A stretch of 64,000 nt of DNA from Flavobacterium sp. SLB02 (lineage in GTDB: Bacteria; Bacteroidota; Bacteroidia; Flavobacteriales; Flavobacteriaceae). The notes below the pieces were generated by a model. It had not been told where the DNA came from. It did no database searches and was given only the letters and a program-made list of their open reading frames with translations. The position numbers and the translations under genes were made by a program. The stretch is taken from positions 6,052,518-6,116,517 of the forward strand of contig NZ_CP045928.1 of assembly GCF_009664855.1 (NCBI RefSeq), read 5' to 3'. This document shows, in pieces, positions 2,793 to 50,116 of the stretch; the first letter of the stretch is position 1; every line of letters starts with the position of its first letter.

Positions 2793-3600
2793 TTTCTTTC
2801 AATTTATTTTTATAAACAATCCTCGAAATCAGGATACTCACTTCGTAAATAATCAGCATTGGTATTGCTACAATAGTCTGGCTTACTACGTCTGGAGGAG
2901 TTACAATTGCGGCTACAATTAAAATAATTACAACGGCATATTTCCAATATTTTCTTAAGAAATCAGGAGTTACTAATCCTAGTTTAGTCAGGAAATATAT
3001 AATGATAGGTAATTCAAAAAACAATCCACTGGCAAGAATACTTGTTTTTACCATTCCCATATAAGAATCTAATGTAAATTGGTTTTTTACCACATCACTC
3101 ACAGAGAATGTAGCTAAGAAATTCACGGACATTGGTATTACAACAAAATACCCGAACAGTACTCCTAAAAAGAAAAGTAATGAAGAAGTGAAGATGAATA
3201 ACTTGGCATTTTTTCTTTCTTTTTCGTATAGAGCAGGGCTGATAAACTTCCAAAGTTCCCATAAAATAAACGGAAAACTAAGTATGAAACCGGCTAAAAG
3301 ACACATCCATACAAAAATATTTACTTGTCCTTCCATTTCCGTATTCTGAATAATAAAATTCAGTTCGGTAATACAAATGCTATCTGCGAATCCTAGTGCA
3401 TGCGATAAATCGCAAAACCAGACATAAGTAAAAAAGGTAGGTCTTATGGGGCCTAAAATAATCTGATCAAATAAATAATCACTAATAAAATAAGTAAAAA
3501 AAGCCATAACGCATATTGCAATTGTGCTTCTAACTAATAACCATCTAAGTTCTTCAAGATGGTCTAAAAATGACATCTCGCCAAGGTTCTTTTTTGCCAT
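2785..3600 (-). CDS. tatC: Sec-independent protein translocase TatC
   Basis: TatC is the multi-spanning receptor of the twin-arginine system, which exports folded proteins. The 271-residue protein starts with M-S-F-L-D-H-L-E-E-L-R at 9-19, the hallmark N-terminal motif, and shows about six membrane segments. The family pattern F-I-S-P-A-L-Y-E-K-E-R is seen near 133-143. A loop of roughly 50 residues between the first two helices contains two cysteines and is longer than in E. coli TatC. The ATG overlaps the kdsD stop as TAATG, so the genes are coupled. No tatA or tatB is present here. Confidence 0.93.
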   Translation of the reverse strand: MAKKNLGEMSFLDHLEELRWLLVRSTIAICVMAFFTYFISDYLFDQIILGPIRPTFFTYVWFCDLSHALGFADSICITELNFIIQNTEMEGQVNIFVWMCLLAGFILSFPFILWELWKFISPALYEKERKNAKLFIFTSSLLFFLGVLFGYFVVIPMSVNFLATFSVSDVVKNQFTLDSYMGMVKTSILASGLFFELPIIIYFLTKLGLVTPDFLRKYWKYAVVIILIVAAIVTPPDVVSQTIVAIPMLIIYEVSILISRIVYKNKLKENV

Positions 3601-4565
3601 TATACGATTCCTTCTTTTAAAATGTCATGTAAATGTAATACTCCTTTGTACTCTCCGTTATCTGAAACGATAAGCTGTGTTATCGAAAAATCTTCTAAAA
3701 TATTTAAAGCATCAACAGCCATAGTTTCTGAAGATACTGATTTGGGATTTTTTGACATAATATCTCTTGCAGTTAAGTCAGCTATAGTATCTACGTCATT
3801 TAGCATTCTTCGGATGTCTCCATCGGTAATAATTCCTATTATTTTGTCATCTTCGATTACCGCTGTAACGCCCAATCGTTTTTCAGAGATCTCAAAAATA
3901 ACTTTTTTAACTGACGTATCTGGCGTAACCATTGGTTTTAACGAGTGTTCAATCATATCTTTTACGCGAAGCAATAATTTTTTGCCTAAAGCTCCGCCTG
4001 GGTGATATACAGCAAAATCCTCAGGTTTAAAATCGCGCATTTCCATCAAACAAACTGCAAGAGCATCGCCCATAACAAGTTGTGCTGTGGTACTGTTTGT
4101 TGGCGCTAAATTTATTGGGCAAGCTTCCATTTCAACGGTTGTGTTCAGAACATAGTCAGAACCTTTTGCTAAAAATGAAGTTACATTTCCTGTTATGGCA
4201 ATTAAGGTGTTTCCAAAGCGTTTTAATAACGGAACCAAAACTTTAATTTCAGGACTGTTACCACTTTTAGAGATGCAAATAATAATGTCCTCGTTTTGTA
4301 TCATACCCAAATCTCCGTGAATAGCTTCTGAGGCGTGCAGAAACATAGAAGGGGTTCCTGTAGAGTTAAAAGTAGCTACCATTTTTTGAGCAATGATCGC
4401 GCTTTTTCCGATGCCTGTAACGATCAATCGGCCTTTAGTTTGGTAAATACGTTGGACAGCTTCGTAAAAATTTTCGTCTAAAAAATCAATTAGCTTTGTA
4501 ATTGCTTCACTTTCAGAGAGTATGGTTTTCTTGGCAATTGCCAATATATTTTCTTTTGTAATCAA
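3600..4565 (-). CDS. kdsD: Arabinose-5-phosphate isomerase KdsD (KpsF/GutQ family)
   Basis: The enzyme interconverts ribulose-5-phosphate and arabinose-5-phosphate, the first step to Kdo for lipopolysaccharide. A SIS domain (G-I-G-K-S-A-I-I-A-Q-K and F-L-H-A-S-E-A-I-H-G-D-L-G-M) is followed by two CBS domains, the standard KdsD layout. The frame is open up to an ATG at 4622, but that codon lies inside a good minus-strand -7 element (TAAATTTG, 4627-4620). I therefore prefer the TTG at 4565-4563, which gives M-I-T-K-E-N-I-L-A-I-A-K-K and the usual family length of about 321 residues. It is first in the operon with tatC, cmd and lptB. Confidence 0.9.
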   Translation of the reverse strand: MITKENILAIAKKTILSESEAITKLIDFLDENFYEAVQRIYQTKGRLIVTGIGKSAIIAQKMVATFNSTGTPSMFLHASEAIHGDLGMIQNEDIIICISKSGNSPEIKVLVPLLKRFGNTLIAITGNVTSFLAKGSDYVLNTTVEMEACPINLAPTNSTTAQLVMGDALAVCLMEMRDFKPEDFAVYHPGGALGKKLLLRVKDMIEHSLKPMVTPDTSVKKVIFEISEKRLGVTAVIEDDKIIGIITDGDIRRMLNDVDTIADLTARDIMSKNPKSVSSETMAVDALNILEDFSITQLIVSDNGEYKGVLHLHDILKEGIV

Positions 4566-46389: not shown

Positions 46390-46542
46390 TCCCAGAGGGA
46401 CGATATATTTATAGAAATATATGATTTATGTTTTGTAGAGCCCCATCGGGGTGACATATTAAAATATACAATATTTAATTTCCAGAATAAACTCCGCTAG
46501 GAGTTACCGGTTGTAAAGCGATTTAGGCGCATCGAAAAAAAA
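46390..46542. repeat. 51-bp-period array of GC-rich mini-hairpins
   Basis: Mini-palindromes TCCCAGAGGGA (46390), CCCCATCGGGG (46441) and CTCCGCTAGGAG (46492) start exactly 51 bases apart; the AT-rich stretches after the first two share GAYRATATT-like text. With folD's terminator and the 18-bp palindrome this fills the 336-base gap up to the next gene. Confidence 0.7.
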
Positions 46543-46568: not shown

Positions 46569-46613
46569 TTGCTAATTGAAAATAAAATATAACTTTGCAG
46601 TACAAAGTACTTT
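46569..46613 (+). promoter_or_regulatory. Promoter and operator 1 of the regulatory locus
   Basis: TTG at 46569-46571, an 18-base spacer and TAACTTTG at 46590-46597 form a consensus promoter. The operator ACTTTG-CAG-TACAAAGTACTTT (46592-46613) overlaps the -7 element and the expected start of transcription. The same text, with a different three-base centre, recurs at 47556-47577. Confidence 0.75.
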
Positions 46614-46617
46614 ATTT

Positions 46618-47232
46618 ATGAATCAGAAGCATCAAGAAGATTTAGCACACATTCGTTCCATGATGGAGCGCTCTTCAAGATTTATATCCCTAAGTGGACT
46701 CTCAGGAGTATTTGCGGGCCTATCGGCTTTAATTGGCGGATTGTACGTGTATCAGCTATTCAAAGTAAACGGGATAGAATATTTTACTGATCAACATATA
46801 TTGTTGACTAGTAACTTAGTTTCAGAATTATTCTGGATTGGCGTTGCAATTTTAGTTTGTGCTTTTGCTTTTGGTATATTTTTTACAATCAGAAAAAGCA
46901 GAAAATACGATTTACCAATCTGGACATCGGCAACAAAAAATATGTTATTCAATTTAGCCGTTCCTCTTTTGGCCGGAGGTATATTTTGTCTGGCACTTTT
47001 ATACCACGAAATTTATGGATTAGTCGCTCCGGCTACTTTAATTTTCTACGGCTTAGCACTTGTAAATGCAGAAAAATATACATTTTCTGATGTTAAGTAC
47101 TTAGGATTCTGTGAATTATTTTTAGGATTTGTTTCTCTTTTTTATATCGGATATGGTTTAGTTTTTTGGATCATCGGTTTTGGTATTTTGCATATCTTTT
47201 ACGGATTAATAATGTTCAAAAAATACAAATAA
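46618..47232 (+). CDS. Membrane protein of unknown function, first gene of a regulated locus
   Basis: A 204-residue protein. A soluble N-terminus of about 30 residues (M-N-Q-K-H-Q-E-D-L-A-H-I-R-S-M-M-E-R) is followed by about six membrane segments, with a cytoplasmic R-K-S-R-K-Y-D-L-P-I-W loop. The frame is open from 46576, but the promoter puts the transcription start near 46604, so the ATG at 46618 must be the start. I do not recognise a named family. The winged-helix regulator gene begins 9 bases after its stop and is surely cotranscribed; the operator upstream suggests self-limited expression. Confidence 0.75.
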   Translation: MNQKHQEDLAHIRSMMERSSRFISLSGLSGVFAGLSALIGGLYVYQLFKVNGIEYFTDQHILLTSNLVSELFWIGVAILVCAFAFGIFFTIRKSRKYDLPIWTSATKNMLFNLAVPLLAGGIFCLALLYHEIYGLVAPATLIFYGLALVNAEKYTFSDVKYLGFCELFLGFVSLFYIGYGLVFWIIGFGILHIFYGLIMFKKYK

Positions 47233-47241
47233 ATCCAAGCA

Positions 47242-47532
47242 ATGGGAATCATTGATAAACTAAATAAAGATTTTGAAAGCCGTGTCAGATTGGGTATTAT
47301 GTCCATCCTGATGGTCAATGAATGGGTTGATTTTACCGAGATGAAGAACCTTCTGAACATTACAGATGGTAATCTGGCCAGTCATTCCTCAGCGCTCGAA
47401 AAATCAGAATATATCGAAGTCAAAAAAGAGTTTGTGGGTAAAAAACCTAAAACCTCTTACCAGGTGACTCCCAGAGGACGTGCGGCCTTTAAGGAACACC
47501 TTTCTTACCTTGAAAAATTAATGAAATCGTAA
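47242..47532 (+). CDS. Winged-helix transcriptional regulator (HTH_34 / MarR-like)
   Basis: A 96-residue protein consisting almost entirely of a winged helix: L-N-K-D-F-E-S-R-V-R-L-G-I-M-S-I-L at the start, recognition helix region N-I-T-D-G-N-L-A-S-H-S-S-A-L-E-K and wing K-T-S-Y-Q-V-T-P-R-G-R-A-A-F. This is the short 'winged helix DNA-binding domain' family common in Bacteroidota. The gene lies between two membrane-protein genes, each preceded by the same palindromic site, so it is the natural candidate for the repressor that binds there. No ligand domain is present; dimerisation probably uses the terminal helices. Confidence 0.88.
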   Translation: MGIIDKLNKDFESRVRLGIMSILMVNEWVDFTEMKNLLNITDGNLASHSSALEKSEYIEVKKEFVGKKPKTSYQVTPRGRAAFKEHLSYLEKLMKS

Positions 47533-47555
47533 TAACTATATTTTTTTACCTAAAT

Positions 47556-47577
47556 ACTTTGAAATACAAAGTACTTT
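47556..47577 (+). promoter_or_regulatory. Operator 2, second copy of the shared palindromic site
   Basis: ACTTTG-AAA-TACAAAGTACTTT, identical to operator 1 outside the three-base centre. TACTTTG and CAAAGTA (47555-47572) form a perfect inverted repeat, and AAAGTACTTT is a 10-bp palindrome. It lies 14 bases ahead of the ATG at 47592. A TTTG end overlaps it as in promoter 1, but no good -33 is visible. Confidence 0.7.
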
Positions 47578-47591
47578 TAAAATTTAAAACA

Positions 47592-48980
47592 ATGAAAAAA
47601 CATCAAATCATTCTAGCTTGCAGTATACTATTTACACTGCTTTTTTACAACGAGTCAATAGGAGTAAACCTCGCTATTTTTGGACTATTCTTAACCGGTT
47701 CAATCTGTTATTTCTTTCAGGATCGCTTTACAGACAGATCACATTTAATCTTGGTTGTTACTTCGGTTTTATCTTGTCTGGCTTTTGCCTGGTACGGAGA
47801 TTTTGTTTCTTTTTTGGCTTTGGCAATCTCCATTCTCTTTTTGCAGTTTAAAACCCAGGAATCAAAACTTAAAATCATACAGGTATTTCCATTGGTATTT
47901 TTAAATGCATTCGCGTCGATAGGTCGTATTTTTATGTTCAGCCAATGGCTTCCGGAAAGAAAAATTCATAACAACTTTGCCAAGAAGCTGATCGCTTATT
48001 TCGTTATTCCAACAATTTTTATAATAGTATTTTTTACAGCCTATTCTTTTGGAAGTACTCATTTCTCTTCTCTACTTACAGATTATACTTTAGATATCGA
48101 TATTGTAGAAGTAATCTTAATTGGAATATTAGGGTTTTATATTTCATTCGGTTTCTGGAATTATTGGGTACCCGAAATTTGTTATGAAAAAAATGAATTA
48201 TTAGACAATGATTTTAATAACATAGCCGAAATTAAAAACCAAAATACATTTTCATTTTTAGATATTGACTTCGAGAGAAAAAGCGGTGAAATCACTTTAC
48301 TGTTGCTAAATATTATGCTTTTAGTATTTATTGTAACCTACAATTACGAACAGTTTTTTGAAGTGATAGAAAAATCAAACCTGAGCGCAGATACACACGA
48401 AAGAGTCAATTCGGTAATTTTCTCAATTGTTATGGCTGTTGGTGTTATTATGTTCTATTTTAAAGGCGGATTCAATTTTGATAAACAAGCAGCTAATCTC
48501 AAAAAACTGGCTAAAATTTGGATTGTCTTAAACGGACTTTTAATAGTAAGTACCATTATTAAAAACTCAGAATACATTTCAGTTTTCGGATTAACTTATA
48601 AACGATTGGGAGTTTATGCTTTTTTGACTTTGGCTATCATAGGTTTAGTTTTTGTTTTTCTAAAAATAACAAAACAAAAAACAAACGCTTATCTGGCCAA
48701 CCAAATGGTATGGTATTTTTACGGAACGGTTTTGTTGTGCAGTTTTGTAAATTGGGGAAATCTGATTACGACTTACAATATTGCAGTAAACAAATGTGTC
48801 GAACCACTATTTTTGAGCGGTTTGAATTTTAATGACGAAGCCCGAAGAGCGTATTTTTCAAAACTTCACTTAGATGGAAAATTAATTGAAATTAGAAAAG
48901 AAGAAGAGATTGATGAATATCAAAACAAGATATTTTTATCAAAAGCGTTGTACTATGAGTTTTTGAATAATAAAAAGTAA
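47592..48980 (+). CDS. DUF4173/DUF4153-like polytopic membrane protein
   Basis: From the ATG at 47592 the protein has 462 residues and about ten membrane segments. Visible features are W-L-P-E-R-K-I-H-N-N-F, F-G-F-W-N-Y-W-V-P and a C-terminal soluble end of about 75 residues with a Y-F-S-K-L-H-L-D-G segment. Proteins of this type are annotated as DUF4173 or DUF4153 and have no known function. The frame is open from 47559, but that start overlaps the operator; the ATG at 47592 is preferred. It belongs to the regulatory locus with the membrane protein and the winged-helix regulator. Confidence 0.75.
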   Translation: MKKHQIILACSILFTLLFYNESIGVNLAIFGLFLTGSICYFFQDRFTDRSHLILVVTSVLSCLAFAWYGDFVSFLALAISILFLQFKTQESKLKIIQVFPLVFLNAFASIGRIFMFSQWLPERKIHNNFAKKLIAYFVIPTIFIIVFFTAYSFGSTHFSSLLTDYTLDIDIVEVILIGILGFYISFGFWNYWVPEICYEKNELLDNDFNNIAEIKNQNTFSFLDIDFERKSGEITLLLLNIMLLVFIVTYNYEQFFEVIEKSNLSADTHERVNSVIFSIVMAVGVIMFYFKGGFNFDKQAANLKKLAKIWIVLNGLLIVSTIIKNSEYISVFGLTYKRLGVYAFLTLAIIGLVFVFLKITKQKTNAYLANQMVWYFYGTVLLCSFVNWGNLITTYNIAVNKCVEPLFLSGLNFNDEARRAYFSKLHLDGKLIEIRKEEEIDEYQNKIFLSKALYYEFLNNKK

Positions 48981-49138: not shown

Positions 49139-49167
49139 ATAGCTTTTGAATTATTTCAAAATGCTAT
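49139..49167 (+). promoter_or_regulatory. Leader hairpin ahead of corA
   Basis: ATAGC-TTTTGAA and TTCAAAA-T-GCTAT pair over 12 bp with a single bulged T and a 4-base loop. It lies directly between the leader ORF and the preferred corA start and covers the alternative start at 49166. No U-tract follows, so a role in translation is more likely than termination. Confidence 0.55.
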
Positions 49168-49189
49168 GATAAAACCCTGCAATTTTGAA

Positions 49190-50116
49190 ATGAAAGCCTT
49201 TTACAAAAACAACAACGGATTAACCGAGACAAAAGAATGGACTCCAAACTGCTGGATTAACATTGAGTCTCCTTCAGAAACAGAAAAAAAATACTTACTG
49301 GAAGAACTGCAAGTTCCTGAAGCCTTTTATAATGATATTGAAGATATCGACGAAAGACCTCGTATGGAATCTGAAGACGGCTGGACTTTGTTTATCATGC
49401 GTATCCCTGTAAAAAGTAATGATGTTAAACTGCCTTTTCAAACTATCCCGTTAGGATTAATTTTTAAAGAAGATATTTGTGTTACCATCAGTTTTTACGA
49501 AACCGAAATCATTTCTGATTTTGTACAATATACCAATCGAAAAAATATACACATAAGAGATAATTTTGATCTCGTTTTACGATTGTTATTATCCTCAAGT
49601 GTTTGGTACTTAAAATATCTGAAACAAATTAATCAAAAGATCAAACTGGCCGAAGATAATTTAGAGAAATCAATCAAGAACGAAGAATTACAAGCACTTT
49701 TGCAAATAGAAAAATGTCTGGTATTCTTTATTACTTCCTTAAAAGGAAATGATGTTTTGTTTCACCGAATTAAAAATCTAAAAGCCCAAAGAGAACATTT
49801 TGATCAGGATTTATTGGAAGATGTTGATATCGAATTAAGTCAGGCGCAAGACACTGCAAATATCTACAGCAATATCTTAACCGGAATGATGGATGCTTAT
49901 GCTTCGGTGATTTCGAACAATATGAATAATATTATGAAGCAAATGACTTCAATTTCTATTATTTTAATGATCCCCACTTTAATTGCCAGTTTATACGGAA
50001 TGAACGTGCCAAACGGTTTAGAAGAAAGTAAATACGGAATCTGGATATTACTTTTAGTATCGGTAATCTTATCTATTTTTGGTGTTTATCTATTCAAAAG
50101 AAGAAGATGGTTTTGA
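49190..50116 (+). CDS. corA: Magnesium/cobalt transporter CorA family
   Basis: A roughly 308-residue inner-membrane channel for Mg2+. The acidic N-terminal soluble domain (W-I-N-I-E-S-P, R-P-R-M-E) is followed by a long helix and two C-terminal membrane segments. The selectivity motif G-M-N is present in L-Y-G-M-N-V-P, and the basic R-R-R-W-F tail is typical. The frame also allows ATG at 49166, but this lies in the 3' arm of a hairpin; ATG at 49190 (M-K-A-F-Y-K-N) is the better start. A terminator shared with the convergent rluF follows. Confidence 0.9.
   Translation: MKAFYKNNNGLTETKEWTPNCWINIESPSETEKKYLLEELQVPEAFYNDIEDIDERPRMESEDGWTLFIMRIPVKSNDVKLPFQTIPLGLIFKEDICVTISFYETEIISDFVQYTNRKNIHIRDNFDLVLRLLLSSSVWYLKYLKQINQKIKLAEDNLEKSIKNEELQALLQIEKCLVFFITSLKGNDVLFHRIKNLKAQREHFDQDLLEDVDIELSQAQDTANIYSNILTGMMDAYASVISNNMNNIMKQMTSISIILMIPTLIASLYGMNVPNGLEESKYGIWILLLVSVILSIFGVYLFKRRRWF

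Follow-up and report, generated by a model that had tools for sequence, protein, structure and literature searches.

The locus described here lies in a 64,000-nucleotide stretch (the window) of Flavobacterium sp. SLB02, whose genome is a single contig of 6,363,829 bases (NZ_CP045928.1; the window covers positions 6,052,518 to 6,116,517). It encodes a small winged-helix regulator of the HTH_34 family (hereafter HTH_34), an adjoining membrane protein (gene1) and a larger membrane protein of the DUF4153 family, and it carries two near-identical palindromic sites, the predicted operators 1 and 2. The best reading, which draws on genome comparison and on operator position, is that HTH_34 represses gene1-HTH_34, DUF4153 and, where present, the genes of a VIT protein and exosortase XrtN. 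Read along the + strand, a 294-amino-acid gene comes first, then operator 1, gene1, HTH_34, operator 2, DUF4153 and a CorA-type gene. The features are (window positions):

46569..46571, + strand: TTG, the -33-type element of P1, the promoter of gene1-HTH_34; 18 bases separate it from the -7 box; read from the sequence
46590..46597, + strand: TAACTTTG, -7 box of P1, read from the sequence, overlapped by operator 1
46592..46613, + strand: operator 1, ACTTTGCAGTACAAAGTACTTT, exact copy, conserved, predicted to span about -10 to +12
46618..47232, + strand: gene1, open reading frame for a 204-amino-acid membrane protein, partner of the regulator, adjoining HTH_34 in the fetched loci
47242..47532, + strand: HTH_34, winged-helix regulator of 96 amino acids (PF13601, E 7.6e-31)
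47541..47547, + strand: conserved T7 tract upstream of operator 2, from genus and class profiles
47556..47577, + strand: operator 2, ACTTTGAAATACAAAGTACTTT, exact copy, conserved
47592..48980, + strand: DUF4153 membrane protein of 462 amino acids, target gene at the locus (PF13687, E 3.3e-30)
Upstream of operator 1, + strand: gene of 294 amino acids, first in the gene order, which we take to be folD-like

The operators and the proteins encoded at the locus

Both sites, proposed by the initial annotation at 46592-46613 and 47556-47577, are present as exact copies on the + strand and share the core ACTTTG-N5-CAAAGT. The three-base centre, to which their differences had been assigned, is indeed where they differ, at two of its three bases (CAG/AAA). 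Operator 2 ends 14 bases upstream of the DUF4153 ATG (47592), the spacing first given for both copies, while operator 1 ends 4 bases upstream of the gene1 ATG (46618). At up to 3 mismatches the window holds 3 matches (one of them operator 2 read on the reverse strand) against 0.05 expected from 100 shuffles, none of which reached 3, and the exact core occurs at two places in the whole genome, operators 1 and 2 only. The two sites are real and go beyond chance. Five looser matches at other places in the genome, each with 2-3 mismatches (L003, L005-L008), were inspected; four have no long open reading frame close behind, and L007 precedes a gene labelled PadR-like by its sequence, with no search.

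The 96-residue winged-helix protein lies between the operators as first described, sharing the interval with the 204-residue gene1 product. It scores 106.6 bits against PF13601 (cut-off 27) and covers the entire profile (1-80 of 80), with no second match above this cut-off in the genome. It falls below the Pfam cut-offs of PadR (PF03551, 20.6 bits against 27) and MarR (PF01047, 13.5 bits against 24.6), and the Pfam scan gave no match to LytTR. HTH_34 is the sole DNA-binding protein encoded at the locus. It is 100% identical to proteins in three Flavobacterium records, and the closest sequence with a solved structure is PH1061 (1ub9). In the presumed recognition helix D-G-N is invariant in 61/61 loci of the class (Bacteroidia), which fits the constancy of the operator.

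For gene1, the Pfam scan returned no family above cut-off. Its structure model has six helices with a mean predicted local distance difference test (pLDDT) score of 74.9, and no fold relative was found at E≤0.001 among the matches listed (50 of 136 PDB matches, E≤10). The best-conserved part is an N-terminal stretch of approximately residues 12-34. The large membrane protein, initially called DUF4173-like, belongs instead to DUF4153 (PF13687, 105.9 bits, cut-off 27), and the DUF4173 profile gives no match to it up to E 1. The two families, formerly members of one Pfam clan, were considered to have no relation to Cache (PMC4822843); the available part of that paper takes DUF4153 out of the Cache clan and holds nothing more of relevance here. 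The DUF4153 structure model has a mean pLDDT of 54.3 and its fold was not used.

Conservation and co-occurrence with the regulator

In the 80 Flavobacterium relatives examined, site and genes remain linked as the initial annotation had expected of related genomes, and 80/80 keep both sites with at most one mismatch each: operator 1 is exact in 78 and has one mismatch in 2, and operator 2 is exact in 74 and has one mismatch in 6. F. johnsoniae CI04 (L054) has the locus with exact copies of both. The arms hardly vary and the five-base centre does, its second base excepted, and the operators therefore have the appearance of a protein site. Across the 81 Flavobacterium genomes a site with at most one mismatch is found in 65/65 that have an HTH_34 orthologue (at least 54% identity) against 2/16 without, the weak matches in G308 and G362 (32 and 35% identity) being scored as no orthologue. 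The reversed control at the same stringency gives 0-3 matches per genome, so that a lone one-mismatch site can be chance. In one of the two genomes with a site and no orthologue (G327, L338, about 3244-4136, - strand) an exact site is accompanied by gene1 in two pieces and an adjoining small membrane protein of a recurring target family, with no HTH_34; it looks like a relic.

A sample of 296 genomes of the class extends this picture. The exact 22-base site is found in 76 of them (reversed control 0/296) and an HTH_34 orthologue (E up to 1e-37) in 107; the orthologue is present in 76/76 site-bearing genomes and in 31/220 site-less ones (Fisher 9e-46, not corrected for kinship). Because most sites adjoin the HTH_34 gene, genomes in which all exact sites lie away from it offer a more independent test, and 14/14 of these, drawn from nine families by their labels, have the orthologue (Fisher 1.5e-11 against the site-less genomes, likewise uncorrected). 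In family f28 the orthologue occurs in 2/12 sampled genomes and the site in those two alone. Weak matches in G025, G031, G289 and G292 (E 6.9e-21 to 1.1e-23) were scored as no orthologue; class genomes such as G014, G174, G124 and G247 have a further group of HTH_34 proteins at greater distance (E about 1e-20 to 1e-24).

The 98 listed site clusters outside the host genome were fetched and contain 133 sites, 93 of which lie within 2.5 kb of HTH_34, every one on its strand, in 61 of the clusters. Among the orthologue loci that lack an exact site, 37 of 42 examined show one with up to 2 mismatches. An operator at this stringency stands at the regulator's own locus in 102/107 genomes (the 61 exact loci, the window, these 37, and G071, G157 and G199).

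The constancy of gene1 is of the same order. It stands beside HTH_34 in 141/141 fetched loci (80 Flavobacterium, 61 class), and strong matches (E up to 1e-50), one per genome, occur in 106/296 class genomes, which are the 107 regulator genomes minus G288; a weak match in G125 (3e-12) lies outside the 106. Gene1 is a near-obligate partner of the regulator.

A third site and the XrtN exosortase system

In the host genome a third site, with one mismatch, is located at 4068568-4068589, about 2 Mb from the window locus and 15 bases ahead of the ATG of a VIT protein of the XrtN system, which is followed by exosortase XrtN. The VIT protein scores 867.9 bits against TIGR04477 (cut-off 250). The adjoining XrtN-like open reading frame (437 amino acids) was found with a profile grown from a protein passing TIGR04476, its assignment thus resting on the derived profile and not on a direct TIGR04476 score. 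With this assignment the host genome has a TIGR04477 protein beside XrtN and behind an operator.

TIGR04477 is present in 12/81 Flavobacterium genomes, and in 12/12 an operator precedes the ATG by 12-19 bases. Six of these operators are exact and six have one mismatch; 11 lie on TAACTTTG and that of the host genome on TAGCTTTG. In the class it is present in 13/296 genomes, with the HTH_34 orthologue in 13/13. Nine of these have a site with up to 2 mismatches directly ahead of VIT, and two have it one gene upstream, ahead of DUF4153 in G280 and of a 312-amino-acid gene in G053 (counted as indirect, this gene lying between operator 2 and VIT). In G157, G199 and G071, from three families, the order is gene1, HTH_34, site, VIT, XrtN; here the exosortase operon occupies the place that DUF4153 has in the window locus. 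Altogether the XrtN system is a predicted target in 24 sampled genomes (12/81 and 13/296, the host being in both). In L197 a profile labels as VIT a gene located 506 bases downstream of an outlying site; this gene was not counted, its genome being outside the TIGR04477 set. As context, and not as evidence about XrtN, XrtF of F. johnsoniae is required for normal surface colonisation and biofilm (PMC10936215, available in part).

Other predicted targets

The genes behind the sites were assigned to families by profiles, each built from a single seed. Behind HTH_34 (61 class loci, within 3.5 kb, same strand) these are DUF4153 in 28, a 180-amino-acid membrane protein in 23, a Coq4-like protein in 10, a 414-amino-acid protein in 6, a 110-amino-acid protein in 5 and a VPLVAMQF protein in 5. 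Sites away from HTH_34 form 37 clusters, and 25 of them precede families that other genomes have downstream of HTH_34: a membrane protein with VPLVAMQFTNEVNW or similar (9), the Coq4-like protein (6, once behind a C92 amidase), the 110-amino-acid membrane protein (4), DUF4153 (4), VIT (1) and the 414-amino-acid membrane protein (1). The locus is therefore not the self-contained unit first described, since the operator also precedes XrtN/VIT in trans and other recurring membrane-protein families elsewhere. Nor is the site scattered away from this gene family, a pattern that had been named as counting against the proposed unit: the outlying clusters mostly precede families of the regulator locus, and all 76 site-bearing genomes have the regulator.

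In L215, L219, L220 and L221, which belong to one family, the operator at 4001 is just upstream of polysaccharide export genes, and in each case a gene of 825-833 amino acids comes next; these are a possible extension of the regulon. In the Flavobacterium loci L187, L190 and L255 operators stand ahead of a Coq4-like gene, which L190 and L255 have together with a C92 amidase gene. The host genome has no Coq4-like-associated site at up to one mismatch.

Two further features neighbour the window locus. A CorA-type Mg2+ transporter gene (49166-50116) is downstream of DUF4153 on the same strand, and the window has no further operator match for it. TAGAGCCCCATCGGGGTGACATAT at 46436-46459 has one exact copy and four copies with 3 mismatches in the genome, with none for the reversed control, and is perhaps a thinly dispersed repeat.

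Promoter context

The box of the F. psychrophilum primary sigma factor, TAnnTTTG, has been mapped at -12 to -5 (PMC9723704, available in part). By this rule transcription of gene1 is predicted to start at about 46602 with a 16-base leader, which would place operator 1 at about -10 to +12. TTG-N18-TAACTTTG is nearly invariant in the 80 Flavobacterium loci, and the overlap of operator 1 with the -7 element at 46590-46597, already pointed out in the initial annotation, recurs in the 80 relatives, its place relative to +1 being a prediction. In these genomes operator 1 looks like an occlusion site.

Profiles of the class sites were built from all 133, none dropped (48 operator-1, 42 operator-2 and 43 other sites). 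TTG lies 16-23 bases upstream in 40/48, 4/42 and 22/43 of them, respectively, and a strict TA ahead of ACTTTG is found in 17/48, 9/42 and 7/43. The profiles thus do not support a reading of operator 2 as an ordinary promoter in which TTG occupies the -33 distance (4/42). How operator 2 and some of the outlying sites act is less clear than for operator 1. The T7 tract is conserved in the genus and class operator-2 profiles and not conserved in those of operator-1 and outlying sites.

Proposed mechanism and alternative explanations

The sites themselves, their conservation, orientation and linkage, and their co-occurrence with the regulator, also in trans, are the observations from which the interpretation starts. 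HTH_34 would bind ACTTTG-N5-CAAAGT, probably as a dimer, and the predicted operators are very probably its sites. When bound, operator 1 would act at the promoter of the regulator's own gene1-HTH_34 operon, operator 2 would control DUF4153 and the third site VIT and XrtN. The left half-site forms part of the -7 box both in operator 1 and in the XrtN site, and bound HTH_34 should therefore keep RNA polymerase from reaching the box and the start site. The expected result is autorepression together with co-repression of envelope genes, and from the position of the operators repression is likely, and activation much less so. Gene1 may feed an envelope cue to HTH_34, for example by holding or releasing the regulator. 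We put the reading as a whole, in which HTH_34 binds the operators and represses its own operon and envelope genes, perhaps with gene1 input, at a probability of roughly 0.8. Site conservation, linkage and co-occurrence lend good support to the feedback unit first proposed, in which one palindrome governs regulator, membrane partner and target.

Several results weigh against this interpretation. Genome-wide, the full pattern at up to 3 mismatches gives 12 matches and the reversed control also 12. When up to 2 mismatches are allowed in the core, its 461 matches per strand compare with 599 for the reversed control; only exact or near-exact matches are therefore informative. The third site has one mismatch, and the reversed control also has one such match in the host genome, so that this site rests on its conservation and not on its count. 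In the class, 4 of the 9 direct VIT sites carry 2 mismatches, and G116 and G167, of one genus, have no site ahead of VIT. The exact 22-mer is missing from 31 regulator genomes (most have a form with 1-2 mismatches), L328 and L335 show no site at the regulator locus, and G325 has one site and no orthologue. Among the 37 outlying clusters, 8 are ahead of other families (polysaccharide export 4, radical SAM 3, DoxX-like 1; B12/radical SAM genes were seen once behind HTH_34) and 4 ahead of nothing recognised. Finally, operator-2 sites mostly have neither TTG (present in 4/42) nor strict TAnnTTTG (9/42), and the strict box is found in just 7/43 outlying sites.

The chances that gene1 serves as input to the regulator are about even, the evidence being their constant pairing. 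It could also be merely a co-regulated envelope protein, with a regulator whose cue is a small molecule or the regulator's own level, and we would give this a little less than an even chance. MarR-like proteins commonly bind ligands, which favours such a bystander role, but gene1 accompanies HTH_34 in 106/107 genomes and is never alone at strong scores, whereas the other targets come and go. More tentatively, and on balance with some doubt, gene1 and HTH_34 may form a distinct, class-wide, membrane-coupled one-component signalling pair, in which the envelope state sensed by gene1 would free or hold a dedicated repressor and so tune a changing set of envelope genes including XrtN.

It is unlikely that HTH_34 is an activator or dual regulator that aids RNA polymerase at operator 2 and at poor outlying promoters. 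The scarcity of TTG at the -33 distance in operator-2 sites and the lack of the strict box at many sites would suit this role, but the -7 box itself is covered in operator 1 and in the XrtN sites of Flavobacterium, an unusual position for an activator, and the winged-helix families related to HTH_34 are mostly repressors. Much less probable still is that the sites belong to another regulator travelling with the locus while HTH_34 binds elsewhere: the regulator is present in every site-bearing genome of the class sample, including the 14 with exact sites in trans only, and the locus encodes no other DNA-binding protein (co-occurrence was computed for HTH_34 alone). A role of the inverted repeat in RNA, as a leader hairpin and not as a protein site, is scarcely credible and was rejected, for although the repeat around operator 2 can form a 7-base stem, the folding of this region is no stronger than that of shuffled sequences (z 0.69), the arms keep their sequence and do not covary, the left arm of operator 1 is upstream of the predicted start and so presumably untranscribed, and the co-occurrence with HTH_34 would be left unexplained.

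A predicted regulator, operator and target set can now be offered for DUF4153, for XrtN and its VIT partner, and for HTH_34 itself. In any regulator-bearing genome candidate targets can be listed from the exact site, which has the specificity needed for this, and the predicted regulon gives a handle on the timing of exosortase N production and hence on exosortase N function.

Comparison with known systems

In the literature searched, mostly non-subscription papers, we found no regulator, operator or targets for DUF4153, HTH_34/PF13601 or XrtN/TIGR04477. None of these papers mentions PF13601 or HTH_34, and a search on the motif, on exosortases with regulators and on VIT terms (mostly non-subscription papers) gave no paper that connects these parts. 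The XrtN system (TIGR04476, TIGR04477) resembles the regulon described here in that VIT stands beside XrtN under, by prediction, the same operator, whereas no exosortase is encoded at the window locus.

Of the published systems that we found, the LytTR Regulatory System (PMC6193735) comes closest: there too a membrane protein and a transcription regulator share an operon that is autoregulated. According to the part of that paper available, those systems have a regulator of another family, direct repeats upstream of -35 and positive feedback, whereas the window locus has a palindrome on the -7 box, and gene1 is known here as a constant neighbour.

In general, a small winged-helix autoregulator is of a known kind. 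Autorepressors such as MarR, PadR and ArsR are also small winged-helix proteins with palindromes over their own promoter and before their targets. The window locus differs from them in its near-obligate membrane partner and in the half-site that doubles as -7 box, and HTH_34 itself scores below the Pfam cut-offs of both PadR and MarR. The window locus is new in three respects: its membrane partner is constant, a half-site forms part of the -7 box, and there is a link to an exosortase.

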